Shown here piece by piece: positions 1,356 through 54,603 of a DNA stretch of 57,235 bases. Source of the stretch: Flavobacteriales bacterium. Lineage in GTDB: Bacteria > Bacteroidota > Bacteroidia > Flavobacteriales_F > PHOS-HE28. Below the pieces are notes generated by a model. It ran no database searches. It had not been told where the DNA came from and saw nothing but the letters and a program-made list of their open reading frames with translations. The position numbers were made by a program, and so were the translations under genes. Numbering within the stretch: the first letter of the stretch is position 1; every line of letters starts with the position of its first letter. The stretch is from NCBI GenBank assembly GCA_018057455.1, contig JAGPDT010000004.1, positions 1 to 57,235 on the forward strand, read 5' to 3'.

Positions 1356-4300
1356 ATGAAACAGCTACTTGCCGCATTGTTGTTGCTGCTTGCGCACTTG
1401 GGCCTGCTGGCCCAGACCGGAACCGAGTTCTGGATGGCGCCGCCGGACGTGACCCTGTTGCACAACAATCCGGGTGATCAGCCCATCTATTTCAACGTGA
1501 CGGCGCGGAGCACGGCGGCCACGGTCACCATTGCGCAGCCCGCGAATGCGGGCTTCAATGGCGGCACGCCCATCGTGATCAACGTGGCGGCGAACAGCTC
1601 GGTGCGCTACAACCTCACCGCACTGAAGGCCCAGTTGGAGACGCGCCCCACCAACACCGTATGCAACACCGGCCTGTACGTAACGGCCACGGCGGACGTG
1701 ACCTGCTACTACGAGTGCAGCAACACCAACAACGCGGACATCCTGGCGCTGAAGGGCGCCAACGGCCTGGGCACCGAATTCTACATCCCCCTGCACAAGC
1801 ACTCCCCTTTCTACAACCACGATTTCGGCAACAACGCCAACAAGGCCTTCGCCAGCTTCGACATCGTGGCCACGGAGAACAACACCACGGTATTGATCAA
1901 CTCGCCCGTGGCCGTGGACGGGCACCCCGCGCTCACCCCGTTCGTGGTGACGCTGAACCGGGGCCAGACCTACTCCTGCGCCAACACCAGCTACCCCAGC
2001 TACACCGATCCCACCACGCACCCCTCGGGTGCGGCCGTGCTTTCGGACAAGCCCATCGCCATCAGCATCAAGGACGACTCCAACCACAACCCCGGCGGCG
2101 GCTGCTACGACCTGATGATGGACCAGATCGTGCCGGTGGAGATCCTGGGCACGGACTACATCGCCGTGAAAGGCGCACTCTACAACAACGGCGACGAATC
2201 CACCTTCCTGATGGCGGTGGAGAACAACACCAAGGTGTACATCGACGGCAACGCCACGCCGGTGGCCACGCTCTTCGCCGGGCAGTACTACCGGCATGAC
2301 ATGGACTACCTCAGTTCGTCCACGGACAATGCCACCCACATGCACACCTCCAAACCCGTGTACGCCATCCACGTCACGGGCTTCGGCTGTGAAATGGGCA
2401 TGGCCATCCTGCCCCCGCTGAACTGCGCGGGCAGCCAGCAGGTGGGCTTCACGCGGTCCACCAACGAAGGCTTCCGCCTGAACCTGCTGGTGCGCAGCGG
2501 TTCGGAGGACGACTTCACCGTAACCGGCCCCGGCACGGCCGTGATACTGGCCAGCTCCTTCAAGGTGGTGCCCGGCACGGGCGGCGAATGGATGGCCGCG
2601 CAGATCGCCTACAACACCACGCAGATTCCGGTGAACTCGGGGATCGTGGTGAGCAACTCCACGGACGTGTTTTCCCTCGGGGTGATCAATGGCGGCGGCG
2701 GTTCCGGCTGCCGCTACGGCTTTTTCTCGGAGTACTCCGGCAAGATCAACATCGATGCCGGTGTGGACCAGGACCTCTGCGCCGATGAGACCGCCACCCT
2801 CGCCGGGTCGGTGTCCGGTGGCAGCACCACCGGTATTTGGACCACCAGCGGCAGCGGGGTGTTCCAGCCCAACGCCACCGCCCTCAACGCCACCTACGAG
2901 CCCAGCATCGGCGACATCGCCCTGGGCAGCGTGACCCTCACCCTTACCAGCACGGGCCAGTGCACGCCCAAACAGGACGACCTGGTGCTCTTCTTCCAGC
3001 CCAAGCCCGTGCCCAACGCCGGCGCGGACCAGTCCGTGTGCACCAACAACCCGGTGGTGGCCCTCAGTGGCAGCATCCTCAACGCCGTGGGCGGCGTGTG
3101 GACCAGCGGCGGCAGCGGCAGTTTCTCGCCCTCCAATGCCAACCTCAATGCCAACTACACCCCCAGTGCCGGCGACCTCACGGCCGGCTCGGTATGGATC
3201 TACCTCACCACCACGGGCAATGGCTACTGCCAGGCCGTGAAGGACAGTATGCTCGTGACCTTCACCCCGGCTATCACCGTGAACGCCGGCAACGACAAGG
3301 TGCTCTGCTCCAACAATGCGGCCGCGGCCCTCGGCGGCAGTTTCACCGTGGCCACCGGCGCCGTGTGGAGCGGCGGCGCGGGCACCTTCGACCCCAGCAC
3401 CACCAATGTGAACGCCACCTACACGCCCACGGCAGGCGAGATCGCCAGCGGCTCGCTGATCCTCACCCTCACCAGCACCGGCAATGGCAACTGCCTGGCG
3501 GTGAACGACCAGGTGCAACTGAGCTTCACGCCTTCGCCTTCGGCCAACGCCGGAAGCAACAGTTCGGTCTGCGCCAACAACGCCAACATTGCCCTCAATG
3601 GCAGCGTGACCGTGGCCACCGGCGGCACTTGGAGCGGCGGCACCGGCTCCTTCAGCCCGGACAACAACACCCTCAACGCCACCTACACGCCCACGGCCGC
3701 GGAGATCGCCAACGGCTCGGTGACCTTGGTCCTTACCACCACCGGCAACGGCACTTGCCTCCCCGCCACCAGTAGCCGCACCATCAGCTTTACCCCGGCA
3801 CCGGTGGTGAACGCCGGTGTTGACGGCACCGTGTGCGCCAACAACGCCGCCATCACCCTGGCGGGCAACGTGACCGGCGCCACCGGCGGAAGCTGGAGCG
3901 GCGGTACCGGCACCTACGGCCCCAACAACAACGTGCTCAACGCCACCTACACGCCCAGCGCCGCCGAGCTCACCGCCGGCACGGTGACCCTCACGCTCAC
4001 CAGCACCGGCAACGGCACCTGCAATCCGGTGGCCGACCAGGTGACCTTCAGCATCACACCGGCGCCCACGGCCAATGCAGGCTCGGACCAAACGCTTTGC
4101 GCCAACAACGCCGTGGCTGCACTGAACGGCAGCTTCACCGTGGCCACCGGCGCGGTGTGGAGCGGCGGCGCGGGCAGCTTCGACCCCAGCACCACCAACA
4201 TGGTGGCCACCTACACGCCCACTGCGGCCGAGATCGCCGGGGGGTCCGTAACGCTCACCCTCACCACCACGGGCAACGGCGGCTGCAATGCCGTTGCCGA

Positions 4301-7300
4301 CCCGATCAACCTGGCCTTTACGGCAGCACCTTCGGTGAACGCCGGGGCCAACAGCTCGGCCTGCGCCAACAACGCCACCATTGCCCTGAACGGCAGCGTG
4401 GCCGGTGCCACGGGCGGCGTGTGGAGCGGTGGCCTGGGCTCCTTCAACCCCAACAACACCACCCTCAACGCCAGCTACACGCCCACGGCGGCCGAGATCG
4501 CGGCGGGCACCCTCACGCTCACCCTCACCAGCACCGGTAACGGCAACTGCGTGCAGGTGCAGGACGGCCGCACCATCACCTTCACCCCGGCGCCCATCGT
4601 GAACGCCGGCCCCAGTGCATCGGTGTGTGCCAACGCCCCGGCCATGTCGCTCAACGGCACCGTGACCGGTGCCACCGGCGGCATCTGGAGCGGCGGCGCG
4701 GGCACGTACAGCCCCAACAACACCACGCTCAATGCGGTGTACACGCCCACCGCCGCTGAACGCACTGCAGGCACCGTGACCCTCACGCTCACCAGCGCCG
4801 GCAACGGCACCTGCAACGCCGAGAGCGACCAGGTGACCTGGACCATCACCCCCGCACCCACGGTGAACGCCGGCATGGACCGCACGGTATGCGGCAATAA
4901 CGCGGCCGTCACCCTCAACGGCAGCTTCACCGTGGCCACCGGCGGCGTGTGGAGCGGCGGTGCGGGTAGCTTCGACCCCAGCACCACCAACATGAACGCC
5001 ACCTACACGCCCACCGCGGCGGAGGTGGCCACCGGCTTCGTAACGCTCACCCTCACCTCCAGCGGCAATGGCCTGTGCACGGCCGTGACCGACCAGGTGC
5101 AGATCACCTTCACCCCGGCGCCCACGGCCAACGCGGGTGCCGATGCAACGGTTTGCGCCAACAACGCGGCCATCGTCCTGAACGGCGGCGTGACCCTGGC
5201 CACCGGCGGCATCTGGAGCGGCGGAGCGGGCACCTACAACCCCGGCAACACCACCCTCAACGCCACCTACACCCCCACGGCGGCCGAGATCGCCTCCGGC
5301 ACCCTCACCCTTACCCTCACCACCACCGGCAACGGCACCTGCAACAGTGCCAGCGACAGCCGCGTGATCACCTTCTCGCCCGCACCCGTCGTGAACGCCG
5401 GCCTGAACGGCTCGGTGTGCGCCAACAACGCGGCCATCACCTTGAACGGCAGCGTGAGCGGCGCCACCGGCGGCACCTGGAGCGGCGGCACGGGCACCTA
5501 CAATCCCAACGCCAATACCCTCAATGCCGTGTACACCCCCAGCGCCGCTGAACGTACCGCAGGCACCGTGACCCTCACCCTCACCAGCACCGGCAACGGC
5601 CTGTGCAACGCCGTGAGCGACCCAGTGACCTTCGCGATCACCCCTGCGCCCACCGTGAATGCCGGTGCGGACCAGAGCCTGTGCTCCAACAATCCCGCGG
5701 CCATCCTGGCCGGCAGCTACACCGTGGCCACCGGTGCCACTTGGAGCGGCGGCAACGGCACTTACAGCCCCAGCGCCAACAACGTGAACGCCACCTACAC
5801 GCCCACGGTAACCGAGATCGCCAATGGTTCGGTGACATTGACCTTGACCACCACCGGCAACATCACCTGCAATGCCGTATCGGACAACGTGGTGCTGACC
5901 TTCACCCCTTCGCCCACGGCCAACGCCGGTGCGGATGTGACGCGCTGCGCGAACAACGCCAACGTGGTGCTTGGCGGTAGCGTGACAGTGGCCACCGGCG
6001 GCGTGTGGAGCGGCGGTGCGGGCTCCTACAACCCCAACAACGCCACGCTCAATGCCACCTACACACCCACCCCTGCGGAGATCTCCGCGGGCATCGTAAC
6101 CCTCACGCTCACCACCACCGGCAACAACAACTGCAACGCCGTTGCGGACACCAAGGTGATCAACTTCACCCCGGCGCCCACGGTGAACGCGGGCGCCAAC
6201 GGCAGCGTGTGCGCCAACAATGCGGCCATCAACTTGAACGGCAGCGTGACCATCGCCACCGGCGCCACCTGGAGCGGCGGCACGGGCACCTACAGCCCCA
6301 ACGCCAACGCGCTCAACGCCGTGTACACGCCCAGCGCCGCTGAACGCACCGCAGGCACCGTGACCCTCACGCTCACCAGCACCGGCAACGGCCTGTGCAC
6401 CGCGGTAACGGACCAAGTGACCTACGCCATCACGCCTGCACCCACGGTGAATGCGGGTGCCAACCAAAGCCTTTGCGGCAACAACGCCGTGGCCACCCTC
6501 TCCGGCAGCTACACCGTGGCCACCGGCGCCACCTGGAGCGGCGGTGCGGGCACCTTCAGCCCCAGCCCCAACAACGTGAACGCCACCTACACGCCCACGG
6601 CCACCGAGATCGCCAACGGATCGGTGACCCTCACCCTCACCACCACGGGCAACAACAACTGCACGGCGGTGAGCGACAACATGGTGATCGCCTTCACGCC
6701 GGCCCCCACGGCCAACGCCGGTGCTGATGCAACCCGCTGCGCGAACAACGCCAGCGTGGCGCTCGGCGGCAGCGTGACCCTCGCCACCGGCGGCACGTGG
6801 AGCGGCGGCGCGGGAACCTTCGCTCCGAACAACACCACCCTCAACGCCACCTACACGCCCACCGCGGCGGAGATCGCGGCGGGTACCCTTACACTTACCC
6901 TCACCACCACCGGCAACGGCGGTTGCAACCCCGCCACCGACACCAAGGTGATCAACTTCACCCCGGCACCCACCGTGAACGCCGGCGTCAACGGCAGCGT
7001 GTGCGCCAACAATGCCACCATCACGTTGGCCGGCACGGTAACGGGATCCACCGGCGCCACCTGGAGCGGTGGCACCGGCACGTACAACCCCAATGCCAAC
7101 ACGCTCAATGCCGTGTACACCCCCAGTGCCGCTGAGCGCACCGCAGGCACGGTGACCCTCACCCTCACCAGCACCGGCAACGGCCTTTGCACCGCCGTGG
7201 CGGACCAAGTGACCTATACCATCACCCCTGCGCCCACGGTGAACGCGGGCACGGACCAAACGCTTTGCGCCAACAGCCCCGTGGCCACCTTGAACGGCAG

Positions 7301-10300
7301 CTACACCGTGGCCACCGGCGCCACCTGGAGCGGCGGCAACGGCACCTTCAACCCCAGCGCCAACTACGTGGGCGCCACCTACACGCCCACGGCCGCTGAA
7401 ATTTCCAACGGGCTGGTGACCCTGACCCTCACCACCACCGGCAACAACAACTGCACGGCGGTGGCCGATGTGATGGAACTGCACTTCACCCCGGCACCGG
7501 TGGTGAATGCCGGTACCGATGCCACCGTCTGCGCCAACAACGCCACAGTAAGCTTGAACGGCAACGTGGCCGTGGCCACGGGCGGCGTGTGGAGCGGCGG
7601 CGCGGGGTCCTTCACCCCCAACAACACCACCCTCAACGCCAGTTACACGCCCACCCCGGCGGAGCTCGCGGGCGGCACGTTGACGCTGACCTTGACCAGC
7701 ACGGGCAACGGCAACTGCGCCGTGGTGAGCGACAGCAAACTGGTCACCTTCACCCCGGCACCGATCGTGAACGCCGGAACCGACGGCAGCGTATGCGCCA
7801 ACAATGCGGCCATCACCTTGGCCGGTAACGTCACGGGTGCCACCGGCGGCATCTGGAGCGGCGGTGCAGGCAGCTTCAGCCCCAACAATACCACGCTCAA
7901 CGCGGTGTACACACCCACCGCGGCCGAACGCACCGCAGGCACCGTGACCCTCACGCTCACCAGCGCGGGCAACGGCCTGTGCAACGCCGTAAGCGACCAG
8001 GTGTCCTTTGTGATCACCCCGGCGCCGACGGTGAACGCCGGTGCGGACCAAAGCCTCTGCGCCAACAATTCCACGGCCAACCTCTCCGGTGGATTCACCG
8101 TGGCCACCGGTGTGGTGTGGAGCGGCGGTGCAGGCACCTTCAGCCCCAGCGCCAACAACCTCAACGCCTCCTACACGCCCACGGCCACCGAGATCGCCAA
8201 CGGCTCGGTAACGCTCACCCTCACCACCACCGGCAACAACAACTGCACGGCGGTGAGCGACAACATCACGCTCTCCTTCACCCCCGCGCCCACGGCCAAT
8301 GCAGGCACCGATGCCAGCGTATGCGTGAACAACGCCAACGTGGCCCTGAACGGTGGCGTGACCGTGGCCACCGGCGGAATTTGGAGCGGCGGCCTGGGAT
8401 CCTTCACCCCGAACAACACCACCCTCAACGCCACCTACACGCCCACCCCGGCGGAACTGGCTGCAGGCACTTTGACGCTCACCCTCACCACCACCGGCAA
8501 CGGCAACTGCGGCCAGGTGGCGGACAGCAAGCTGATCACCTTCACCCCGGCACCCACCGTGGATGCCGGACTGAACGGCACCGTGTGTGCGAACAACGCG
8601 GCCATCCCCTTGGCCGGAGCGGTGAACGGCGCCTCCGGCGGCATCTGGAGCGGCGGCACCGGCTCCTACAGCCCGAATGCCAATACGCTCAACGCCACCT
8701 ACACGCCCAGCGCTGCTGAACGCACTGCGGGCAGCGTGACCCTTACGCTCACCACCGTGGGCAACGGCAACTGCTCTGCGGTGAGCGACCAAGTGACCTT
8801 CAGCATCACCCCTGCGCCTACGGCCAACGCCGGTGCGGACCGCGTGCTCTGCGCCAACAACCCCGTGACCACCCTGGCCGGTGCCTTCACCGTGGCCACC
8901 GGCGGCGTGTGGAGCGGCGGCAACGGCAGCTTCGACCCCAGCACCACCAACATGAGCGCGATCTACACGCCCACAGCGGCTGAAATCGCCAACGGCACCT
9001 TGACGCTCATCCTCACCACCACCGGCAACGGACTCTGCAATGCCGTGGCCGACCAAGTGCTGCTCACCTTCACCGATGCACCCACGGCCAACGCCGGTGC
9101 TGATGTGACCGTGTGCGCCAACAACGGCGCGGTGGCCCTGGGCGGCAGCGTGGTGACCGCCACGGGCGGAACCTGGAGCGGTGGATCGGGCACCTTCACC
9201 CCCAACGCCAACACGCTCAACGCCACCTATTCGCCCAGCGCGGCCGACATCGCCGCAGGCCAGGTGACCCTGACGCTGACCACCACCGGCAACGGCGACT
9301 GCACCCCGGCCGTGGACAGCAAGACCATCTTCTACACCCCGGCACCCATCGTGAACGCCGGTGTTGATGGCACGGTGTGCGCCAATGCGGCCGCCATCGC
9401 CCTCAGCGGCACCGTGACAGGCGCCACCGGCGGCGTGTGGAGCGGCGGCAGCGGCAGTTTCAGTCCGAACAGCATCACCCTGAACGCCACCTACACGCCC
9501 ACCGCAGCGGAGATCACGGCAGGCACAGTGACGCTCACCCTCACCAGCGCCGGCAATGGCCTGTGCAACCCGGTGACGGACCAGGTGACGTACACCATCA
9601 CGCCTTCACCCACCGTGAATGCCGGTGTGGACCAGACCTTGTGCGGCAACAACGGCACCGCCACCCTGAATGCGGCCCTCACCGTGGCCACCGGCGTACA
9701 GTGGAGCGGCGGCACCGGCCTCTACAGCCCGGGCAGCACCGCGCAGAACATCACCTACTCGCCCTCGCCGATCGAAGTGGCCAACGGCTCCGTGACCCTT
9801 ATCGCCACCACCACCGGCAATGGCAACTGCGCCGCCGTGGCGGACCAAGTGCAGATCACCTACACCGTGGCACCCACGGCCAATGCAGGTCCTGACCAGA
9901 GCGTGAGCGAGAACAACCCGGCGACCACTTTGGCCGGAACCTATTCCATCGCCACCGGCATCAGCTGGAGCGGTGGTGCCGGCACTTACACGCCGAACAA
10001 CACCACGGCCAACGCGGTGTACATGCCCACGGCCTCGGAGATCGCGGCCGGCAGCGTAACCCTCACTTTGACCACCACGGGCAACGGCTCCTGCGCGGCC
10101 GCCAGCGACCAGATGACCATCACCTTCAGCGATGCGCCCACGGCCAACGCCGGACCTGACCAAACGATCTGCGCCAACAACGCCAGCGTGGTGCTCAGCG
10201 GCAGCGTCACCATCGCCTCCGGCGGCATCTGGAGCGGCGGCAACGGCAGCTACAACCCCAACAACGTTTCGCTCAACACCACCTACATCCCCTCCGCCGC

Positions 10301-13300
10301 CGAGATCGCCGCGGGCAGCGTCACCCTCACGCTCACCACCGTGGGCAACGGCAACAGCAATCCGGTGACGGATCAGATCGTGATCACCATCACGCCTGCC
10401 CCCATGGTGAATGCGGGCGCCAACCTCACCAGCTGTGCCAACCAACCCACGGCCCAGCTGGCCGGTGTGGTGAACAACGCCACCGGCGGTGTGTGGAGCG
10501 GCGGATCGGGCACCTTCAACCCCGGCAACACCAACCTCAACGCCACCTACACGCCCACCTTGGGTGAAGTGGCCGCAGGCACCGTAACGCTCACCTTGAC
10601 CAGCACCGGCAACGGCACCTGCAACGCGGTGGCCGACCAAGTGGCCATCGCCATCGCCCCGGCCCCCGTGGTGAATGCCGGCGTCGATCAAACCGTGTGT
10701 TCCAACAACGCCAGCGTGCAACTGGCCGCATCCGTGGCCAATGCCACCGGCGGCATCTGGAGCGGCGGCACCGGCGGCTTCTCGCCGAGCATCAACGCGC
10801 TCAACGCCGTCTATACCCCCAGTGCGACCGAACTGGCCAACGGCTCGGTGACCCTCACGCTCACCAGCACCGGCAACGGCAGCTGCCTGGCCGTGAGCGA
10901 TGCCCTGACGATCTTCTTCTCGCAAAGCCCCACGGTGAATGCGGGCGCGGACCGCACGGTGTGCGCCAACGACCCCACGGTGGTGCTCAACGGCGCGATG
11001 ACCATTGCCGGTGGCGCCGCATGGAGCGGCGGCGGCGGAAGCTTCACGCCGAATGCGAACTCCTTGAACGCCACCTACCACCCCAGCGCGGCTGAAGTGG
11101 CCTTGGGCACGGCGACCTTGACGTTGACCACCACGCAGAACGGCCTGTGCAATGCGGTGAGCGACCAGATGGCCATCACCATCATCGCCTCGCCTGTGGC
11201 GGATGCGGGAACTGACCTGTTCGTCTGCTCCAACAACGCACAAGTGCAATTGGGCGGTGCCGTGAACGGCGCCGGTGGCGGCCAGTGGAGCGGCGGTGCG
11301 GGCACTTACAGCCCATCGATCGCTTCCTTGAACGCCATCTACACGCCCACTGCGGCGGAGGTGGCGGCAGGCACCTTGACCTTGACCTTGACCACCATCG
11401 GCAACGGCAACTGCGTGCCGGTGAGCGACCAGGTGCTGATCACCTTCACCGCTTCGCCCACGGCGAATGCCGGCAACGATGGCGTGTACTGCGCCAACAA
11501 TGCAGCGATCCAGCTCAACGGCAGCGTGACCATTGCCAACGGCGGCACCTGGAGCGGCGGCGGCGGAACCTTCACGCCGGATGCCAACGCCCTCAATGCG
11601 GTGTACGTGCCATCCTTAGGTGAGATCGCCGCTGGCAGCGCCACACTCACGCTCACCACCACGGGCAACAACGGTTGCACCCCGGTGAGCGACAACGTGA
11701 GCTTCACCTTCACTCCGGCGCCCACGGCCAACGCCGGTGCCGACGCGAGCATCTGCGCCAACAACGCCACCTTCCAACTGAACGGCAGCGTGACCGTGGC
11801 CACCGGCGGATTGTGGAGCGGCGGTGCAGGCAGCTTCAGCCCCAACAGCGGCGTGCTGAATGCCGTGTACACGCCCACGGCGGCGGAGATCGCCGCAGGC
11901 AGCGTGACCCTCACGCTCACCACCGTGGGCAACGGCCAGTGCAGCCCGGTAAGCGACCAACTGGTGCTCACCATTACACCTGCTCCCGTGGTGGATGCCG
12001 GTCTGCCTGTGCAGTCCTGCGCCAACAACCCCGCCGTGCAACTGTCCGGTTCCGTGCAGAACGCCGCAGGCGGGATGTGGACCGGTGCGGGCAGCTTCAG
12101 CAACGCCACCAGCCTGAGCCCCATCTACACGCCTTCCGCTGCGGAAGTGCTGGCGGGCACCGCCACGGTAACGCTGACCAGCACCGGCAATGGCCTCTGC
12201 AACGCGGTGAGCGATCAGGTGACCATCACCATCACCGCCGCACCGGTGGTTGATGCGGGCACGGCACAAACGCTCTGCGCCAACAACGTGGCGGCCCAGC
12301 TCGCCGGCGCGGTGACCAACGCCACCGGCGGTGCGTGGAGCGGCGGTGCAGGCAGCTTCAGCCCCAACGCCAATACCTTGAACGCCGTGTACACCGCCAG
12401 CGCCGCCGAAGTGGCCGCGGGCAGTGCGTGGCTCTACCTCACCAGCACCGGCAACGGCGGCTGCCTCTCCTCGCGGGATTCCGTCCTGCTGAGCTTCAGC
12501 CCGGCACCCGCGGTGAACGCGGGCCTGGATGCCCATGTGTGCGCCAACAACGCAGCCGTGAACTTGAACGGCAGCGTGACCGTGGCCACCGGCGGCAACT
12601 GGAGCGGCGGAGCGGGCAGCTTCTCGCCCAACGCCCAAGCCCTCAATGGCATCTACACGCCCACCGCACTTGAACTGGCGGCAGGCCAGATCAACCTGGT
12701 GCTCACCAGCACCGGAAACGGAAATTGCATCGCAGTAAAGGACAGCTTGGTGATCATCGTGGACCCCGTGCCCGTGGTGAACGCCGGTCCGGACCAAAGC
12801 ATCTGCGCCAACAACCCCAACTTCCAGCTGAACGGCTTCGTGGGCAACGCCCCGGGCGGACAGTGGACCGGCGGTGCGGGCAACTACTTCCCCAGCAACA
12901 CCTCCTTGGCCGTGCAATACACGCCCACCGCGGCCGAGATCGCAGCAGGCTCGCTGACCTTCACCCTCACTTCCACGGGCACCATGTACTGCGCAGCGGT
13001 CACGGACCAAGTGACCATTGTCTTCACGGATTCCCCCGTGGTGAACGCGGGTGCTGACCTGATGATCTGCGCCAACAATGCGGCGGTGCAGCTCACCGGC
13101 AACGTGGACAACGCCAGTGGCGGCACTTGGAGCGGTGGCAGCGGCGCCTTCAGCCCCAATGCCAACGTGCTCAGCCCGGTGTACACGCCCACGGCCTCCG
13201 AGATCGCCTCGGGCGGCATGAACCTCATCCTCACCAGCACCGGCAACGGCAACTGCATCGCCGTGCGCGACACGGTGCATGTCACCTTCACCCCGGCACC

Positions 13301-16300
13301 CACGGTGAATGCCGGAAGCGACCTGAGCATGTGCTACAACAACCCGGTGGTGTCGCTGAACGGCGCGAGCACCGTGGCCGGCGGCGTGCAGTGGAGCGGC
13401 GGCTTGGGCACTTACGCGCCCAACGCACAGAACGCCACCGCGCAGTACACATTGACGCCCTTCGAACTGCAGACCGGCGCGGTGACCCTCACGCTCACCA
13501 CCACCGGCAACGGCAACTGTTTGGCCGTGGCCGACCAGATGACCATCACCGTAACGCCTTCACCGGTGGTGAATGCCGGTGCGGACCTGATCACCTGCTC
13601 CAACGACCTCGATGTGCCCATGGCGGGCACCGTGCAGGGCGGCGCAACCACCGGCGTGTGGAGCACCTCGGGCACGGGCAGCTTCTTCCCCAGCGCCACC
13701 GACCTGAATGCCACCTACATGGCCAGCGCGCTGGATTCACTGAACGGTACTGTGGATCTCACCCTCACGGCCACCAGCTTCGGCCTATGCAACGTGGTGA
13801 GCGACCTGATGACGCTGACCATCCTGCCCAACGCCACGGCCAACGCAGGCCCTGACCAGAGCACCTGCGCCAGCAACGCCACCGTGCAACTCACGGGCAC
13901 CATCATCGGCAACGCCACCCAAGGCCAGTGGACCACCACCGGCGCGGGCAGCTTCGTGCCGAACGCCAACGATGCCAACGCGGTGTACCAAGTGGCGGCA
14001 TCCGATGCGGCGCTGGGCAACCTCACCTTCACCTGGAGCGTGAACAGCTGCGACAACGCCATGGACCAGATGAACCTGGCCATCGTGCCGGTGTCCGCTG
14101 CGAATGCGGGTGCTGACCAAGTGGTCTGCTTCGGCAGCCTCAACGTGGTGATCAACGGCAACATCAGCGGCGCCTCCAGCACGGGTGTGTGGAGCACCTT
14201 GGGCACCGGCAGCTTCGCGAATGCGGCCGATGCATTGTCCAACATCTACCAGGCCAGCGCCCAGGATTCCTTGGCACAAGGCGTGGACCTGGTGCTCACG
14301 GCCACGAACACCGGCGCGTGCAGTGCCGATGCGGACACCGTGCACATCGCGATCCAGCCCGCCGGTACCGTGAACGCCGGCCAGGACCTGAGCTTCTGCG
14401 CCAACAACGCCACCGTGCAATTGATGGGCACCTTGAGCGGCGATGCCACCCAAGTGCAGTGGACCACCTCCGGCACGGGCAGCTTCTACCCGAGCAACAC
14501 CGTGCTCACGCCCACCTATGTGCCCAGCGCCATCGATACGGCCATCGGTACGCTGACGCTGACCTTGAACGCGGTGAACACCTGCAACAACGCCAGCGAC
14601 GCCATGAGCTTGACGCTGACCCCGGCACCGTACGTGAACGCAGGCCTAGACCAGACCTTCTGTGACCAGGTGAGCGTGTTCGGCATCAACGGCTCGATCA
14701 GCGGGGTGACCAGCGTGGGCCAGTGGACCACCACCGGCACGGGCACCATCGCCAACGCCGGTTCAGTGAACACCACCTACACCGCCAGTGCCGCCGACGT
14801 GGCCGCCGGGCAGATCACCTTCACCCTCAGCTCGCTGAACAACGGCAACTGCAACGCGGTGGGCGACAACATGACGATCTACCTCACCGACGGCATCATC
14901 GTGAGCGCCGGACCGGACCAGAGCGTGTGCGTGGCCAGTGACCATGCCAACCTGCAGGGCACCATACAGAACGGCTCGCCCTCGGGCACCTGGACCACCA
15001 CCGGCACGGGTACCTTCCAGCCCAATGCCGACGTGCTGAACGCCCAGTATTACTTCTCCCCGGCCGACGTGGCCAACGGTGCGGTGGTACTCACCTTCAC
15101 GGCAACGAACACCGGTACCTGCCCCAGTGGCAGCGACCAGATGACGTTGACCTTCGGCAACGCCAGCTATGCGTATGCCGGTGAGGACCAAGCGCTCTGC
15201 GCCAATGCGCCGATAGCCCAGCTCGGCGGTAACTACAGTGGCGGGGCTTCCGGCATCACCTGGACCACCAGCGGCTCCGGCAGCTTCAGCAACAACACCA
15301 ACCCCGCTGCCACCTATACACTGAGCGCGGCGGACATCGCGGCGGGCACCGTGCAGCTCACCATGACCACCATCACCAATGGCAGCTGCGTGGCCGCCAG
15401 CGACGGTGTGACCCTCACGGTGAATGCCATACCGGCGATCACCGCGGGCAGTGACGTGATCGCCTGCACCTCGGCACCGGTGCAGCTGGCCGCCAACGCA
15501 GCCAACGCCACCGGCGGTACGTGGACCACCAGCGGTTCCGGCACCTTCTTCGATGCCAACGCCCTGGCCACCCTGTACTACCCCAGTGCAGCGGACAGCA
15601 TCGCAGGCACGGTGACCCTCACGGTGACCAGCACCGGCATGGCCCCATGCAGCGCGGTGGCCGATGCGCTGACCATCACCTTCGGCGGCGGCCTCAGTGC
15701 ACAAGCCGGGCAGGATGTGACCACGTGCAGTACCAGCCCCAACGTGGCCCTGGCGGGCACCGTGGCAGGCACCACCACCGGCCTATGGTCCAGCAGCGGC
15801 ACGGGCTCCTTCAGCCCCAGCGCCACGGACCTCAATGCCACCTACATCCCCGGTGCGGCGGACTTCGTGATTGGCAACATCAACCTGGTGCTCAGCACCA
15901 CCAACAACGCGGGCTGCCCGGCCGGCCGCGATACCCTGGTGGTAAGCTACCATGTGCCGCCCACGGTGAACGCCGGTGCCGACCAGCTGATCTGCAACGG
16001 CATTGAGCCCATCCAGCTCGGGGCCATCGCCCAGAACGACAGCGCCGTGCATTGGATCACCGCCGGCACGGGCGTCTTCAGCCCCGATGCCAACACGGCC
16101 AATGCCACCTACCTGCCCTCGGCCCAGGACAGCATCAACGGCGGCGTGTACCTGATCCTCACCGCCTACGGCACGGGCACCTGCGCCAATGCCTCGGATT
16201 CACTCTTCATCGGCGTGGGGCCCACCCGCATCGCCCTTGCAGGCAGCGATTTGGACATCTGCGCCGATGGCGGTCCCATACCCTTGGCCGGCGCCATCAC

Positions 16301-17522
16301 CGGCGTGAGCGGCGGCACGTGGACCACCAACGGCACGGGCAGCTTCCTGCCGGATGCCACGGCCCTCAACGCCACCTACGTGCCCAGCGCACCCGACCTG
16401 GTGTTCCAGCAACTGAGCTTCGTGCTCACCACCACCGGCAACATGGGCTGCCCTGCGCACAGCGATACCACCTTGGTGAACTTGCACCAGCCTTCCATGG
16501 TGGATGCCGGCCAGGACATCTCCACCTGCGATGCCAGCGCCGACGTGCAGCTGGCGGGCGTGGCCAACGGTGGCACGGGCGTGCAGTGGTCCACCTTGGG
16601 CAGCGGCACCTTCGTGCCCAACAGCACCACGGCCACCGCCGTGTACCAGCCCAGTGCCGCGGACAGCGCCATGCATTACGTGGACTTGGTGCTCACCACC
16701 ACCGGCGAGCTGTACTGTGCAGCACCCGATGACACCGTGCGCATCTCCTTCGTGAACCCGCTGAGCGCGGCCTTCACCATGGGGGCAGCCTGCGCCGGCC
16801 TGCCCACGGCCTTCACCGATGCCAGCACCACCACCGGATCACCCATCGTAGGCCGTACCTGGACCCTGGGGAACGGCACCACCGCCACCGGCCAGCAAGC
16901 CAGCGCCACCTATGGCACGGCGGGCCCGTACACGGTAACGCTCACGGTGTTCGCGCAGAACGGATGCAGCGCCTCCACCAGCCAGACCGTGGAGATCATG
17001 GACTCGCCCACGGCCGGCTTCAGCATCAGCGGCGATGCCTTCACCGGGGAGCCGATGATCATCACCGACAACGCCATCGGCGCCACCACCTGGCAGTACG
17101 ACTTCGGCGACGGCACCGGCTCGCTGATGCAACAGCCCAACCACGTGTATACCGGGCCGGGCCAGTACATCATCGTACAAACGGTGCGCAATGCCGCCGG
17201 CTGCTCCGCCCAGGACTCCATCCTGGTCTCCATCAAGGAGAACAAGATCGTGGCGCCCAAACTGCCCGATGCCTTCAGCCCCAACGGCGACGGCGTGAAC
17301 GACGCCTTCTTCGTCCGCGGCGGACCCTTTGAGACCATCCACCTGCGCATCTACAATGGATGGGGTGAAATGATCTTCGAGACCACCGACCCCACCTTCG
17401 GCTGGGACGGCACCTACAACGGCAAGCCGGAGATCAACGGGGTGTATGTGTACTCCGTGGTGGCCACCTCGGTGGACGGCCAGGAACACGACCGTTCGGG
17501 CAAAGTGACCTTGATCCGCTAA
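1356..17522 (+). CDS. Giant T9SS surface protein: IgGFc-binding-like N-domain, 53 tandem repeats, PKD, type B sorting domain
   Basis: A 5,388-residue secreted protein. Order: signal peptide (MKQLLAALLLLLAHLGLLAQ, about 1-20); an N-terminal region of about 445 residues beginning TGTEFWMAPPDV, which resembles the IgGFc-binding N-terminal domain; 53 Ig-like repeats of about 88 residues (466-5133), each with a NAGxDxxxCANN opening, a WSGGxGxF/Y centre and a TLTLTTTGNGxC strand; two PKD-like domains (about 5135-5290, with YDFGDGTG); and a gliding-motility-type (type B) sorting domain from about 5300 (LPDAFSPNGDGVNDAFF to the end). Nearly every repeat has two cysteines, so disulfides are likely. 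It probably acts as an adhesin or surface filament exported by the type IX system. The PorP/SprF gene starts 16 bp downstream, a common pairing for type B cargo. The 189-bp upstream gap shows no clear -7 box. The domain order is read directly; the adhesin role is inference. Confidence 0.93.
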   Translation: MKQLLAALLLLLAHLGLLAQTGTEFWMAPPDVTLLHNNPGDQPIYFNVTARSTAATVTIAQPANAGFNGGTPIVINVAANSSVRYNLTALKAQLETRPTNTVCNTGLYVTATADVTCYYECSNTNNADILALKGANGLGTEFYIPLHKHSPFYNHDFGNNANKAFASFDIVATENNTTVLINSPVAVDGHPALTPFVVTLNRGQTYSCANTSYPSYTDPTTHPSGAAVLSDKPIAISIKDDSNHNPGGGCYDLMMDQIVPVEILGTDYIAVKGALYNNGDESTFLMAVENNTKVYIDGNATPVATLFAGQYYRHDMDYLSSSTDNATHMHTSKPVYAIHVTGFGCEMGMAILPPLNCAGSQQVGFTRSTNEGFRLNLLVRSGSEDDFTVTGPGTAVILASSFKVVPGTGGEWMAAQIAYNTTQIPVNSGIVVSNSTDVFSLGVINGGGGSGCRYGFFSEYSGKINIDAGVDQDLCADETATLAGSVSGGSTTGIWTTSGSGVFQPNATALNATYEPSIGDIALGSVTLTLTSTGQCTPKQDDLVLFFQPKPVPNAGADQSVCTNNPVVALSGSILNAVGGVWTSGGSGSFSPSNANLNANYTPSAGDLTAGSVWIYLTTTGNGYCQAVKDSMLVTFTPAITVNAGNDKVLCSNNAAAALGGSFTVATGAVWSGGAGTFDPSTTNVNATYTPTAGEIASGSLILTLTSTGNGNCLAVNDQVQLSFTPSPSANAGSNSSVCANNANIALNGSVTVATGGTWSGGTGSFSPDNNTLNATYTPTAAEIANGSVTLVLTTTGNGTCLPATSSRTISFTPAPVVNAGVDGTVCANNAAITLAGNVTGATGGSWSGGTGTYGPNNNVLNATYTPSAAELTAGTVTLTLTSTGNGTCNPVADQVTFSITPAPTANAGSDQTLCANNAVAALNGSFTVATGAVWSGGAGSFDPSTTNMVATYTPTAAEIAGGSVTLTLTTTGNGGCNAVADPINLAFTAAPSVNAGANSSACANNATIALNGSVAGATGGVWSGGLGSFNPNNTTLNASYTPTAAEIAAGTLTLTLTSTGNGNCVQVQDGRTITFTPAPIVNAGPSASVCANAPAMSLNGTVTGATGGIWSGGAGTYSPNNTTLNAVYTPTAAERTAGTVTLTLTSAGNGTCNAESDQVTWTITPAPTVNAGMDRTVCGNNAAVTLNGSFTVATGGVWSGGAGSFDPSTTNMNATYTPTAAEVATGFVTLTLTSSGNGLCTAVTDQVQITFTPAPTANAGADATVCANNAAIVLNGGVTLATGGIWSGGAGTYNPGNTTLNATYTPTAAEIASGTLTLTLTTTGNGTCNSASDSRVITFSPAPVVNAGLNGSVCANNAAITLNGSVSGATGGTWSGGTGTYNPNANTLNAVYTPSAAERTAGTVTLTLTSTGNGLCNAVSDPVTFAITPAPTVNAGADQSLCSNNPAAILAGSYTVATGATWSGGNGTYSPSANNVNATYTPTVTEIANGSVTLTLTTTGNITCNAVSDNVVLTFTPSPTANAGADVTRCANNANVVLGGSVTVATGGVWSGGAGSYNPNNATLNATYTPTPAEISAGIVTLTLTTTGNNNCNAVADTKVINFTPAPTVNAGANGSVCANNAAINLNGSVTIATGATWSGGTGTYSPNANALNAVYTPSAAERTAGTVTLTLTSTGNGLCTAVTDQVTYAITPAPTVNAGANQSLCGNNAVATLSGSYTVATGATWSGGAGTFSPSPNNVNATYTPTATEIANGSVTLTLTTTGNNNCTAVSDNMVIAFTPAPTANAGADATRCANNASVALGGSVTLATGGTWSGGAGTFAPNNTTLNATYTPTAAEIAAGTLTLTLTTTGNGGCNPATDTKVINFTPAPTVNAGVNGSVCANNATITLAGTVTGSTGATWSGGTGTYNPNANTLNAVYTPSAAERTAGTVTLTLTSTGNGLCTAVADQVTYTITPAPTVNAGTDQTLCANSPVATLNGSYTVATGATWSGGNGTFNPSANYVGATYTPTAAEISNGLVTLTLTTTGNNNCTAVADVMELHFTPAPVVNAGTDATVCANNATVSLNGNVAVATGGVWSGGAGSFTPNNTTLNASYTPTPAELAGGTLTLTLTSTGNGNCAVVSDSKLVTFTPAPIVNAGTDGSVCANNAAITLAGNVTGATGGIWSGGAGSFSPNNTTLNAVYTPTAAERTAGTVTLTLTSAGNGLCNAVSDQVSFVITPAPTVNAGADQSLCANNSTANLSGGFTVATGVVWSGGAGTFSPSANNLNASYTPTATEIANGSVTLTLTTTGNNNCTAVSDNITLSFTPAPTANAGTDASVCVNNANVALNGGVTVATGGIWSGGLGSFTPNNTTLNATYTPTPAELAAGTLTLTLTTTGNGNCGQVADSKLITFTPAPTVDAGLNGTVCANNAAIPLAGAVNGASGGIWSGGTGSYSPNANTLNATYTPSAAERTAGSVTLTLTTVGNGNCSAVSDQVTFSITPAPTANAGADRVLCANNPVTTLAGAFTVATGGVWSGGNGSFDPSTTNMSAIYTPTAAEIANGTLTLILTTTGNGLCNAVADQVLLTFTDAPTANAGADVTVCANNGAVALGGSVVTATGGTWSGGSGTFTPNANTLNATYSPSAADIAAGQVTLTLTTTGNGDCTPAVDSKTIFYTPAPIVNAGVDGTVCANAAAIALSGTVTGATGGVWSGGSGSFSPNSITLNATYTPTAAEITAGTVTLTLTSAGNGLCNPVTDQVTYTITPSPTVNAGVDQTLCGNNGTATLNAALTVATGVQWSGGTGLYSPGSTAQNITYSPSPIEVANGSVTLIATTTGNGNCAAVADQVQITYTVAPTANAGPDQSVSENNPATTLAGTYSIATGISWSGGAGTYTPNNTTANAVYMPTASEIAAGSVTLTLTTTGNGSCAAASDQMTITFSDAPTANAGPDQTICANNASVVLSGSVTIASGGIWSGGNGSYNPNNVSLNTTYIPSAAEIAAGSVTLTLTTVGNGNSNPVTDQIVITITPAPMVNAGANLTSCANQPTAQLAGVVNNATGGVWSGGSGTFNPGNTNLNATYTPTLGEVAAGTVTLTLTSTGNGTCNAVADQVAIAIAPAPVVNAGVDQTVCSNNASVQLAASVANATGGIWSGGTGGFSPSINALNAVYTPSATELANGSVTLTLTSTGNGSCLAVSDALTIFFSQSPTVNAGADRTVCANDPTVVLNGAMTIAGGAAWSGGGGSFTPNANSLNATYHPSAAEVALGTATLTLTTTQNGLCNAVSDQMAITIIASPVADAGTDLFVCSNNAQVQLGGAVNGAGGGQWSGGAGTYSPSIASLNAIYTPTAAEVAAGTLTLTLTTIGNGNCVPVSDQVLITFTASPTANAGNDGVYCANNAAIQLNGSVTIANGGTWSGGGGTFTPDANALNAVYVPSLGEIAAGSATLTLTTTGNNGCTPVSDNVSFTFTPAPTANAGADASICANNATFQLNGSVTVATGGLWSGGAGSFSPNSGVLNAVYTPTAAEIAAGSVTLTLTTVGNGQCSPVSDQLVLTITPAPVVDAGLPVQSCANNPAVQLSGSVQNAAGGMWTGAGSFSNATSLSPIYTPSAAEVLAGTATVTLTSTGNGLCNAVSDQVTITITAAPVVDAGTAQTLCANNVAAQLAGAVTNATGGAWSGGAGSFSPNANTLNAVYTASAAEVAAGSAWLYLTSTGNGGCLSSRDSVLLSFSPAPAVNAGLDAHVCANNAAVNLNGSVTVATGGNWSGGAGSFSPNAQALNGIYTPTALELAAGQINLVLTSTGNGNCIAVKDSLVIIVDPVPVVNAGPDQSICANNPNFQLNGFVGNAPGGQWTGGAGNYFPSNTSLAVQYTPTAAEIAAGSLTFTLTSTGTMYCAAVTDQVTIVFTDSPVVNAGADLMICANNAAVQLTGNVDNASGGTWSGGSGAFSPNANVLSPVYTPTASEIASGGMNLILTSTGNGNCIAVRDTVHVTFTPAPTVNAGSDLSMCYNNPVVSLNGASTVAGGVQWSGGLGTYAPNAQNATAQYTLTPFELQTGAVTLTLTTTGNGNCLAVADQMTITVTPSPVVNAGADLITCSNDLDVPMAGTVQGGATTGVWSTSGTGSFFPSATDLNATYMASALDSLNGTVDLTLTATSFGLCNVVSDLMTLTILPNATANAGPDQSTCASNATVQLTGTIIGNATQGQWTTTGAGSFVPNANDANAVYQVAASDAALGNLTFTWSVNSCDNAMDQMNLAIVPVSAANAGADQVVCFGSLNVVINGNISGASSTGVWSTLGTGSFANAADALSNIYQASAQDSLAQGVDLVLTATNTGACSADADTVHIAIQPAGTVNAGQDLSFCANNATVQLMGTLSGDATQVQWTTSGTGSFYPSNTVLTPTYVPSAIDTAIGTLTLTLNAVNTCNNASDAMSLTLTPAPYVNAGLDQTFCDQVSVFGINGSISGVTSVGQWTTTGTGTIANAGSVNTTYTASAADVAAGQITFTLSSLNNGNCNAVGDNMTIYLTDGIIVSAGPDQSVCVASDHANLQGTIQNGSPSGTWTTTGTGTFQPNADVLNAQYYFSPADVANGAVVLTFTATNTGTCPSGSDQMTLTFGNASYAYAGEDQALCANAPIAQLGGNYSGGASGITWTTSGSGSFSNNTNPAATYTLSAADIAAGTVQLTMTTITNGSCVAASDGVTLTVNAIPAITAGSDVIACTSAPVQLAANAANATGGTWTTSGSGTFFDANALATLYYPSAADSIAGTVTLTVTSTGMAPCSAVADALTITFGGGLSAQAGQDVTTCSTSPNVALAGTVAGTTTGLWSSSGTGSFSPSATDLNATYIPGAADFVIGNINLVLSTTNNAGCPAGRDTLVVSYHVPPTVNAGADQLICNGIEPIQLGAIAQNDSAVHWITAGTGVFSPDANTANATYLPSAQDSINGGVYLILTAYGTGTCANASDSLFIGVGPTRIALAGSDLDICADGGPIPLAGAITGVSGGTWTTNGTGSFLPDATALNATYVPSAPDLVFQQLSFVLTTTGNMGCPAHSDTTLVNLHQPSMVDAGQDISTCDASADVQLAGVANGGTGVQWSTLGSGTFVPNSTTATAVYQPSAADSAMHYVDLVLTTTGELYCAAPDDTVRISFVNPLSAAFTMGAACAGLPTAFTDASTTTGSPIVGRTWTLGNGTTATGQQASATYGTAGPYTVTLTVFAQNGCSASTSQTVEIMDSPTAGFSISGDAFTGEPMIITDNAIGATTWQYDFGDGTGSLMQQPNHVYTGPGQYIIVQTVRNAAGCSAQDSILVSIKENKIVAPKLPDAFSPNGDGVNDAFFVRGGPFETIHLRIYNGWGEMIFETTDPTFGWDGTYNGKPEINGVYVYSVVATSVDGQEHDRSGKVTLIR
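2754..16754 (+). repeat. Tandem array of 53 coding repeats, unit about 264 bp
   Basis: Units begin at the codons for N/D-A-G. Starts at 3282, 3546, 3810 and so on to 11994 are spaced exactly 264 bp, giving 33 consecutive indel-free units (numbers 3-35). Unit 1 is 261 bp, unit 2 is 267 bp and unit 36 is 258 bp; units 37-41 are again 264 bp. Units 42-53 vary in length and use a longer WSTSGTGSF-type centre. Confidence 0.95.
3282..9881 (+). repeat. Higher-order repeat, three units (792 bp), about 8.3 cycles
   Basis: Units 3-27 fall into three alternating classes. Class A (3, 6, 9 ... 27) has DQxLCxNN with F/Y/L-TVATG. Class B (4, 7 ... 25) has a V-type first strand and AEI/AEL-AxGTLTLTLTTTGN. 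Class C (5, 8 ... 26) has NGSVCANN or DGTVCANN, and six of its eight members carry AAERTAG. The strict order A-B-C implies amplification of a 792-bp block. Confidence 0.85.
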
Positions 17523-17538
17523 AAGAGAACAGAACACC

Positions 17539-18522
17539 ATGAAAACGACAACGAACCTTCTGTTGGCGGCCGCCCTTTTCGGATCCGGGGCCGCCTGCGC
17601 ACAGGACGCGCAGCTCTCCCAGTACGAGGCCGCCGCCGTCATGCTCAACCCCGCGCTCACCGGCATGTTCGAGAACAGCGACTTCCGCGTAAGCACCAAC
17701 TTGCGCAGCCAATGGAGCAGCTTGGGCAGCAACTTCCTCACCACCGCCTTCGCCGTGGACATGTCCATGGACCGGCAGTACGGCTTCGGGGCCTACCTGA
17801 GCAACTACAACATGGCCGGCACCATGAACAACTTCCAGGCCGGCATCAGCGGCGCTTACAACGTCTCCTCCAGCAAGGACTATTCGCTCTCCGCCGGTGT
17901 GAACCTGGGCCTGATCTACAAAAAGGTGAACGACGATGAACTGGTCTGGGACGCCCAGTACGACCGCGACCACTTCAACACCGACCTGCCCACCGGCGAG
18001 CTCTTCCAGAAGATGGGCCGCATGCTGCCCGACCTGGGCGCCGGCGTGGCCTACCGCTCCACCGACCGCAACAAGATGTTCAACCCTTTCGGCAACTTCG
18101 CTCTGTTCCACGTCACCACCCCGGACGAGTCCATCTTCCGCACCGAGAAGAGCGACCTGCCCATCCGTTGGTCGGCGAATGCCGGCACGCGCATCACCGT
18201 GAGCGAAGGCGTGGACATCATTCCCCAAGGCCTCTACATGCGGCAAGGTGAGGACCAGCAGGTACAAGCCGGTGTGATGGGCCAAGTGGCCCTGATGAAC
18301 GGGGTGTACGGCGTGGTGGGCGGTGCCTCCTACCGGTTGGACGATGCACTGATCGCCCAGGTGGGCATCAAGCACGGCAACAACTACTACCGCTTCAGCT
18401 ACGATGTGAACGTTTCACCCCTGCGCAGCTACACCCGCAACAACGGCGCATTCGAGTTCTCCATCGTGTACCTGGGCACCGTGTCCGGCAGGGCGCGGAG
18501 GATGACCAGCAGCGCGTTCTGA
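17539..18522 (+). CDS. PorP/SprF family type IX secretion membrane protein
   Basis: A 327-residue outer-membrane beta-barrel of the PorP/SprF family, which helps secrete or anchor T9SS cargo, often the product of the gene next to it. A signal peptide (MKTTTNLLLAAALFGSGAACAQ) is followed by the family start DAQLSQYEAAAVMLNPALTGMF, then alternating barrel strands such as YGFGAYLSNYNMAGTMNNF and YRFSYDVNVSPLRSYTRNNGAFEFSI. The length is typical. It begins 16 bp after the giant surface protein gene on the same strand, so the two are probably cotranscribed, and it is probably the dedicated outer-membrane partner of that protein. The C-terminal tail after the last strand (RARRMTSSAF) is short and basic. 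Confidence 0.92.
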   Translation: MKTTTNLLLAAALFGSGAACAQDAQLSQYEAAAVMLNPALTGMFENSDFRVSTNLRSQWSSLGSNFLTTAFAVDMSMDRQYGFGAYLSNYNMAGTMNNFQAGISGAYNVSSSKDYSLSAGVNLGLIYKKVNDDELVWDAQYDRDHFNTDLPTGELFQKMGRMLPDLGAGVAYRSTDRNKMFNPFGNFALFHVTTPDESIFRTEKSDLPIRWSANAGTRITVSEGVDIIPQGLYMRQGEDQQVQAGVMGQVALMNGVYGVVGGASYRLDDALIAQVGIKHGNNYYRFSYDVNVSPLRSYTRNNGAFEFSIVYLGTVSGRARRMTSSAF

Positions 18523-34847: not shown

Positions 34848-35455
34848 CAGGGAAACAAGGTGTTCTTCTTGCTGCTCCTGCCGTGGACGGCTTCGTTGAA
34901 GCACGGCCGGCAGAGCGGTTCATAGCTGTCGGTCTCGCCCAGCAGGATCAGGCGGTCGCTGGCGGACGTGCGGTGGCTGTAATGCGCCAGCTCACCGCAG
35001 CGCAGGCAGATGGCGTGCACCTTGGTGACGTATTCGGCCAAGGCCAGCAGCTGCGGCATGGGTCCGAAGGGCCGCCCTTGGAAGTCCATGTCCAGCCCGG
35101 CGATGATCACGCGCACGCCGTTGTTGGCCAGCTGCTCGCACACGCGGGGCAGCGCCTCGTCGAAGAACTGGGCCTCATCGATGCCCACCACGTGCAGGTC
35201 CGCGGCCAGGGGCAGCAGGGCCGCGCTATGCTGTACGGCCGTGCTGCCGATCGCGCGCTGGTCGTGGCTCACCACGTCGCTCGCGTGGTAGCGGTTGTCC
35301 GTGCTGGGCTTGAAGATGCCCACCTGCTGCTTGGCGAACTCGGCGCGGCGCAGACGCCGGATCAGCTCCTCGGTCTTGCCCGAGAACATGCTGCCGCACA
35401 CCACTTCGATCCAGCCCCGGCGGGGGCCACGGCTACCGTTGTGTTCCAGGAACAT
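34847..35455 (-). CDS. tdk: Thymidine kinase (type II)
   Basis: Phosphorylates thymidine in the salvage pathway. The 202-residue protein has Walker A (VVCGSMFSGKTEELIRRL), the DEAQFF motif with the catalytic acid, and a zinc site of two pairs, CLRC and CRPC, flanking the nucleoside-binding lasso (YSHRTSASDRLILLGETDSYEPLC). The length fits the TK1-like family. It is the first gene of an operon with murF-alr (one-base overlap). Its 5' side faces the divergent gene at 35665. Confidence 0.95.
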   Translation of the reverse strand: MFLEHNGSRGPRRGWIEVVCGSMFSGKTEELIRRLRRAEFAKQQVGIFKPSTDNRYHASDVVSHDQRAIGSTAVQHSAALLPLAADLHVVGIDEAQFFDEALPRVCEQLANNGVRVIIAGLDMDFQGRPFGPMPQLLALAEYVTKVHAICLRCGELAHYSHRTSASDRLILLGETDSYEPLCRPCFNEAVHGRSSKKNTLFP

Positions 35456-43446: not shown

Positions 43447-43493
43447 GTGTTGCGGTGTTGCGGTGTTGCGGTGTTGCGGTGTTGCGGTGTTGC
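43447..43493. repeat. Octanucleotide tandem repeat, 5 full copies plus 7 of 8 bases
   Basis: The plus strand repeats GTGTTGCG without mismatch over 47 bp (CGCAACAC on the minus strand). It lies between an ATG (43499) and the present in-frame start (GTG 43405) of the surface protein gene, so copy number sets which frame the ATG reads. Confidence 0.9.
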
Positions 43494-54516: not shown

Positions 54517-54554
54517 TCGGTTCCACACTTCAACTTCCGTTTTCATTTTTCATT

Positions 54555-54603
54555 TTTCAGCTTTCAGCTTTCAGCTTTCATATTTCCACTTTCAGCTTTC
54601 GAA
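54555..54603 (+). repeat. Heptanucleotide pyrimidine-rich repeat upstream of moaC-mogA
   Basis: Seven consecutive 7-bp units: TTTCAGC three times, TTTCATA, TTTCCAC, TTTCAGC and TTTCGAA, ending one base before the ATG at 54605. The preceding bases (from 54540) are further TTTTTCAT-type sequence. Confidence 0.85.

Follow-up and report, generated by a model that had tools for sequence, protein, structure and literature searches.

The window analysed here, 57,235 bp long, lies at the start of an 86,386-bp contig (JAGPDT010000004.1) in the 3.3-Mb, 130-contig genome of a Flavobacteriales bacterium (GCA_018057455.1), and it carries an open reading frame (ORF) for a giant repetitive protein with 53 immunoglobulin (Ig)/PKD-like modules. 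Our main finding is that the regular repeat block of this protein is three modules long (A-B-C, 792 bp), a regularity overlooked in the preliminary description of the sequence, which had singled out the 264-bp unit. That description needs correction chiefly in two respects: change proceeds by three modules at a time, and the array of this genome looks old. In the sequences we observed directly the domain plan, the triplet repeat, between-species changes in multiples of three, a fixed cell-proximal part and a reciprocal cysteine pattern. We consider it likely that the gene encodes a cell-surface filament of the type IX secretion system (T9SS), anchored by a PorP/SprF protein, with a distal shaft that changes by whole triplets and a proximal half that stays nearly fixed.

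The features on which the argument rests are as follows.

1356..17522, plus strand: ORF of 5,388 residues, predicted giant secreted protein (ORF call and translation)
1356..1415, plus strand: signal-peptide-like hydrophobic N-terminus (MKQLLAALLLLLAHLGLLAQ), read from the translation without a signal-peptide predictor
1356..2753, plus strand: N-terminal region (head) with an IgGFc_binding domain (PF17517, residues 135-443, E 8.1e-38), used as the ortholog marker
2754..16763, plus strand: 53 Ig/PKD-like modules of 86-90 residues apiece
3282..11993, plus strand: run of 33 modules, each exactly 264 bp
3282..9881, plus strand: A-B-C three-module higher-order repeat zone (792 bp), about eight periods, the final one weak (lag-3 identity peak and cross-species class residues)
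9882..10409, plus strand: modules 28 and 29, the reciprocal cysteine pair (cysteine table)
11994..12251, plus strand: module 36, 86 residues, which closes the 33-unit run and is the first length marker of the fixed part
13572..16763, plus strand: 12 C-terminal modules with a conserved length ladder (90,87,90,88,89,90,89,87,89,89,89)
16764..17522, plus strand: two PKD domains and a CHU_C/T9SS type B sorting domain (PF18911, PF00801, PF13585 at 57.8 bits, TIGR04131)
17539..18522, plus strand: outer-membrane protein of the PorP/SprF family, probably the anchor and the partner in secretion (TIGR03519 at 161.9 bits, PF11751)

The three-module repeat block

The 33 consecutive 264-bp units reported in the preliminary description were recovered, with starts (3282, 3546 ... 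11994) exactly 264 bp apart and all units open in the frame of the ORF at 1356-17522. Tandem Repeats Finder independently returned a period of 264 with 33.1 copies and 66% matches at 3203-11936. Counting from 2754, the whole array likewise came to the 53 units described, with lengths of 86-90 residues outside the 33-unit run. The mean pairwise identity of the 33 units was 68.6% for DNA and 61.1% for protein, with a maximum of 87.5% for both.

Over the first 25 of these units, DNA identity rose to 0.775 at lag 3 from 0.680 and 0.682 at lags 1 and 2, respectively. It peaked again at lags 6, 9, 12 and 15, and the three-unit regularity fades after the unit starting at about 9618. The module classes were named A, B and C, with module 3 (start 3282) as A. 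Cross-species identity in 13 arrays was 0.705 for same-class and 0.591 for different-class modules, the same-class value being the higher in 78 of 78 species pairs. Since same-class modules within one genome are 0.724 identical, barely above the between-species value, the triplet and its phase already existed in the ancestor of the genus. Residues specific to one class tend to lie near module junctions (8-12 residues), namely 11 of 23 against 5.2 expected (hypergeometric p 0.0017), with a junction window picked by the analyst after the positions were known.

Lag 3 was also shown by the arrays of genomes G310 and G278a. A general three-module rule for such arrays was considered and rejected, because periods of 4 (G278b), 5 (G064, G049b) and 6 (G274, G411) occur. 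As a separate observation, a 6,597-residue relative from another family (G310, L123-L124) repeats length triplets of about 96, 94 and 89 in its first part, where the triplet is visible by length alone, and same-module arrays of G049 (L130) and G064 (L138) have a five-module period that can be seen in their lengths (90,88,90,89,87).

Module counts across orthologs

The head region was searched in 45 genomes of the genus, one genome being compared per species, so that length differences are between species only; 29 of the 45 matched at E<=0.001, 22 of them strongly. Ten genes among the 22 strong matches were complete (our own and nine others) and the rest were cut by contig ends; two orthologs with their halves on separate contigs give no total count, and G026 and G036 were not parsed. 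The number of modules was 53 in four species (our own, G033, G032 and G002), 59 in G022 and G008, 62 in G040 and G004, 41 in G037 and 38 in G013. All ten counts are 2 modulo 3, and no constant remainder was found for the moduli 2, 4, 5 and 6.

A unit-level alignment with free gaps, performed for the 45 ortholog pairs, gave the same picture, as 55 of 55 gaps were multiples of three modules (27 of 3, 8 of 6, 4 of 9, 4 of 12, 5 of 15, 3 of 18, 3 of 21 and 1 of 24). The tree, built on the head together with the last 12 modules, requires at least six count changes, or five without G004; if six changes were random in size, all of them would by simple arithmetic fall on multiples of three with a probability of (1/3)^6, about 0.0014. 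Gain or loss of single modules upstream of module 42 was therefore rejected on the counts and the gaps. The preliminary description had named an identical copy number in all relatives as an observation that would speak against its view, and the counts of 38 to 62 show that this is false. Its proposal of expansion and contraction by recombination is supported between species, the steps being three-module blocks and not single units.

Module for module, the array of our genome corresponded to that of G033 at 51 of 53 positions. In the comparison with G032, the positional match was 12 of 25 in the triplet zone and 26 of 26 elsewhere, and in that with G002 it was 6 of 25 and 22 of 26, respectively. 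As the matching with G032 falls in the triplet zone while the remainder keeps 26 of 26, turnover of the triplet zone does proceed over longer times, across the age of the genus. Within the window, adjacent blocks of one class showed a synonymous difference of 0.271, close to the 0.288 between orthologous modules of our genome and G033 (saturation about 0.39). The copies in our genome thus look about as old as the split from G033, that is, they look old, and no sign of recent duplication was seen in this array. The continuing change proposed in the preliminary description found no support in these figures, nor in the count of 53 that four species share.

The cell-proximal part

The C-terminal length ladder recurs in the orthologs with rare differences of one or two residues, and G008 and G004 have one extra triplet in their proximal halves. 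The cell-proximal half is nearly fixed across the genus, and the distal half is probably a telescoping shaft, the copy number of which has changed through gain or loss of whole A-B-C triplets (792 bp), presumably by in-register recombination. Recombination in register is suggested by the greater likeness of same-class copies than of neighbours. The strong constraint on module length suggested earlier was supported in part: the 88-residue spacing is kept in ten orthologs with few one-residue exceptions, whereas in-frame block duplication would also give a fixed length, and the C-terminal modules vary (86-90).

Other families were compared by means of the ladder. The modules before the '90' module numbered 11 in G290, G184, G049, G109 and G137, 8 in G226 and 59 in G310, which is 2 modulo 3 in seven of seven. 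This count covers arrays with the ladder; the ladder-less arrays of G195, G278, G362, G045, G049b, G336, G163, G285, G274, G411, G064, G075 and G317 were left out, and some ladder-less arrays have periods of 3, 4, 5 or 6.

Several points weigh against our reading. The 55 pairwise gaps share history and are not independent, and G004 has an N run inside its array. In G024 (L117), the tail repeats two modules resembling our modules 51-52, the sole change seen in the genus that is not a multiple of three, and the tails in other families are 2 or 4 modules shorter; three is no rule for the whole protein, and that idea was rejected. The extension to other families depends on the length ladder and is weaker than the result within the genus, since free alignment gave 30+4 for G290 and G184, and for G049, G109, G137, G226 and G310 it gave different sums, 32 and 35 among them. 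The triplet is not general in the class, as mentioned above for the arrays with periods of 4, 5 and 6. Finally, we infer, and did not observe, that the protein is exported, anchored and adhesive, that the filament has the length given below, that homologous recombination brings about the changes and that disulfides form.

The origin of the triplet step

Concerning the origin of the step, we lean slightly toward the triplet as a historical relic, in which a three-module block was amplified once in the ancestor of the genus and in-register recombination has kept the steps at three without structural meaning. This account is the mechanism half of our best explanation, minus selection. The lag-3 identity exceeds that at lag 1 by about 0.095, which by itself would steer in-register recombination, and both the tolerated two-module change in the tail of G024 and the other periods of related arrays fit this account. 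On the other hand, A, B and C keep their class-specific residues over 13 arrays, and the 11 of 23 near junctions, in the window chosen afterwards, hint at three distinct joints under selection.

The opposite account, in which three modules make up one mechanical unit, be it a complete superhelical turn or a single binding face, and the distal shaft tolerates whole triplets only, seems to us rather unlikely. It would explain why module numbers go in steps of three in all ten complete orthologs and also, judged by the length ladder, in seven other-family arrays, and it agrees with the class residues close to the junctions and with the unrelated-looking 96/94/89 length triplet in G310. Against it stand the two-module tail change in G024 and the six-module structural model, with its low predicted template modelling score (pTM) of 0.48.

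Fold and distribution of the module

The preliminary description of the unit as an 88-residue Ig-like module was supported by AlphaFold2, which modelled a beta-sandwich with a predicted local distance difference test (pLDDT) score of 94.8 and a pTM of 0.82. The best solved match was a module of GhpA, the grappling hook protein A of Aureispira sp. CCB-QB1 (PDB 9fly; Z 10.2, root-mean-square deviation (rmsd) 2.1, 82 residues), just ahead of a human PKD domain (Z 9.7). The six-module model reached a pLDDT of 91.5, and its low pTM makes the relative placement of the modules uncertain. Ranks 1-8 of its matches were all GhpA pieces (PDB 9fly, 9flw, 9flv, 9flu and others; Z 10.6-13.1), with 9flw at Z 11.7, rmsd 4.2, 466 residues and template modelling scores of 0.62/0.64, and 9fly at Z 13.1 and rmsd 9.7; NCAM came next (Z 10.2, rmsd 10).

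The 53 modules had no Pfam or NCBIfam family match. In the 30 modules scanned, no Ig/PKD Pfam family passed its curated cut-off; the best E was 0.015 (K319L-like_PKD), and the first member reached 14 bits against a cut-off of 27. The whole-array Pfam hits to RNase_PH_C and HATPase_c_2, which pass through summed short pieces and have no stretch of their own, were taken as chance, and a weak match of DUF6791 to the array as chance of composition. Of 396 genomes sampled across the class, 189 contain the module itself, as do 97 of 195 genera (E<=1e-10), and 53 of the 54 module hits in our genome fall in the ORF at 1356-17522.

The reciprocal cysteine pair

In module 28 (from 9882), position 9 is serine and the second cysteine is kept, while in module 29 (to 10409) Cys9 is kept and the second site is Ser71. 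The cysteines were tabulated for 1,244 modules in 42 arrays, 1,236 of them readable, leaving out L061 (N run), L115, L129, L135 and the short fragments L120-L122. Both cysteines were present in 1,204 modules, only the first was lacking in 16 and only the second in another 16, none lacked both, and 8 were unreadable. All 32 exceptions form 16 adjacent pairs in 15 arrays, in which the first module is without Cys9 and the next without the second cysteine; no unpaired loss of one cysteine was found among the readable modules.

The pair is present in 10 of 10 complete orthologs (twice in G013, six modules apart), with serine as the replacing residue at both sites in all ten. It was also observed in the partial arrays of G018, G034, G024 and G017 and in the other-family array of G310, and it was not found in seven ladder-bearing genomes from other families. 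Counted from the 5' end, the pair starts at module 28, 34, 37, 31, 16 or 7/13, which is 1 modulo 3 in all ten complete orthologs; counted from the 3' end, its place is fixed in 8 of the 10, its modules being the 25th and 24th before the end, and it lies three modules further in G008 and G004.

Because unbonded cysteines would be expected to drift away, the two leftover cysteines are probably bonded. A simple disulfide between them in a straight rod was rejected, since the strand order of the model suggests that too large a distance, roughly one module length, separates them; a swap or a bond between chains may apply instead. The pair might also have arisen by another route, through insertion of one module length into a module free of cysteines. 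As a speculative extension of our reading, two rules might act jointly in a GhpA-like shaft, three modules being a mechanical repeat with distal lengthening by whole triplets only, and the cysteine pair being a special joint at a defined distance from the cell, where the two leftover cysteines bond with each other (by a strand-exchanged or inter-module disulfide) or with a second filament. The coupled cysteine swap offers a sharp, checkable prediction on how the modules of a giant adhesin can lock together.

Secretion and anchoring

The attributes of a T9SS type B substrate were all found, namely a C-terminal sorting domain, a cognate PorP/SprF-like gene and the SprA translocon in the genome. 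The TIGR04131 match (45.6 bits, cut-off 35) reaches the last residue of the 5,388-residue protein, the PorP/SprF gene adjoins the filament gene in 10 of 10 complete orthologs, and SprA is encoded with 2555.4 bits (cut-off 200). On this evidence a T9SS-exported, PorP-anchored filament is the most likely reading. The protein would be exported by the T9SS, and the neighbouring PorP/SprF-like barrel would hold the filament at its C-terminus. An Ig module is usually 3.5-4 nm long, and the 53 Ig/PKD-like modules, presumably bearing disulfides, may form a rod of about 200 nm that carries an IgGFc_binding-type head away from the cell. The Pfam label IgGFc_binding is by itself no evidence of what the head might bind. 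A PDB sequence search with the head gave no match at E<=10; the C-terminal part matched collagenase PKD domains as well as an S-layer protein.

It is improbable, in our judgement, that the protein is a mobile gliding adhesin of the SprB type, a filament dragged along the gliding track. The T9SS type B tail and the adjacent PorP/SprF gene resemble the sprB-sprF arrangement, and a GldJ-like gene is present in the genome with 377.9 bits, below the cut-off of 458.2. However, PMC12635249 reports that the C-tail Cys-X-Cys of SprF does not vary among its close homologs and that the link to GldK requires it, and this motif is absent from the partner protein in the window and from 9 of 9 orthologous neighbours. 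This absence speaks for a static filament over a gliding adhesin, and SprB-type gliding was rejected on this ground.

An array expanded or collapsed by the assembler, a refuting case named in the preliminary description, is very improbable. Exact repeats within the array reach 42 bp at most and none of its 51-mers occurs twice, so that ordinary short-read k-mers resolve it, and complete genes lie in megabase contigs of two relatives, G002 (a single 3.92-Mb contig, 53 modules) and G037 (3.86-Mb contig, 41 modules), although several others (G014, G017, G018, G019, G021, G024, G034, G038, G042) break inside the array.

Other observations in the window

An antisense ORF of 2,563 residues (1365-9056, minus strand) mirrors the array. 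The longest stop-free antisense runs in the orthologs range from 418 to 3,258 codons, and from this variation the ORF looks like a codon-bias by-product of the 88-codon repeat. Further along, a perfect 8-bp tandem repeat (GTGTTGCG, 5.9 copies) lies at 43447-43493 and a degenerate 7-bp tandem repeat (TTTCAGC, about 6.6 copies) at 54529-54600. The minus strand at 32394-34904 carries an ORF of 836 residues, Mur ligase-like and fused to alanine racemase, a type of fusion known in Bacteroidota.

Comparison with known systems

With 38 to 62 modules, the orthologs form a natural series of lengths for a single predicted bacterial surface filament, stepped in triplets, which makes it testable whether the step is set by the mechanics of the protein or by homology of the DNA. 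In the open-access literature, with most subscription papers outside its scope, we found no paper on this protein, on a triplet rule in bacterial adhesins or on a reciprocal cysteine joint.

A close arrangement is that of SprB and SprF in Flavobacterium johnsoniae, likewise a giant repetitive T9SS type B substrate beside a PorP/SprF gene (PMC9143113). SprB is about 200 nm long according to PMC12635249. The comparison covered domain plan and gene order, and the partner in the window differs in lacking the C-tail Cys-X-Cys.

GhpA is also a giant Bacteroidota protein with serial beta-sandwich modules, and the Aureispira hooks are heptamers of a T9SS-secreted protein (PMC11205867). The modelled modules of the predicted filament have the fold of the GhpA shaft in series, and a shared fold shows no function. 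Unlike the structural models, the sequence profiles of the module and of six modules gave no PDB match at E<=10; the resemblance to GhpA would thus be one of shared architecture, proving neither kinship nor function.

With a rod of repeated modules that joins head to anchor and differs in copy number, the protein recalls the Periscope Proteins, bacterial surface proteins whose repeat stalks vary and which PMC9704523 defines by near-identical repeats and population-level variation. Highly identical tandem repeats were not found here: the units of the window peak at 87.5% identity with exact repeats of at most 42 bp, and differences were seen between species only.

Lastly, the amplification of blocks of several domains links the array with multi-domain repeat expansions such as those in nebulin (e.g., of seven), which were read from autocorrelation peaks according to PMC1553488. 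Unlike in these cases, the block size in the present gene can be seen directly as length steps among orthologs of one bacterial genus, in what is probably a prokaryotic surface filament.

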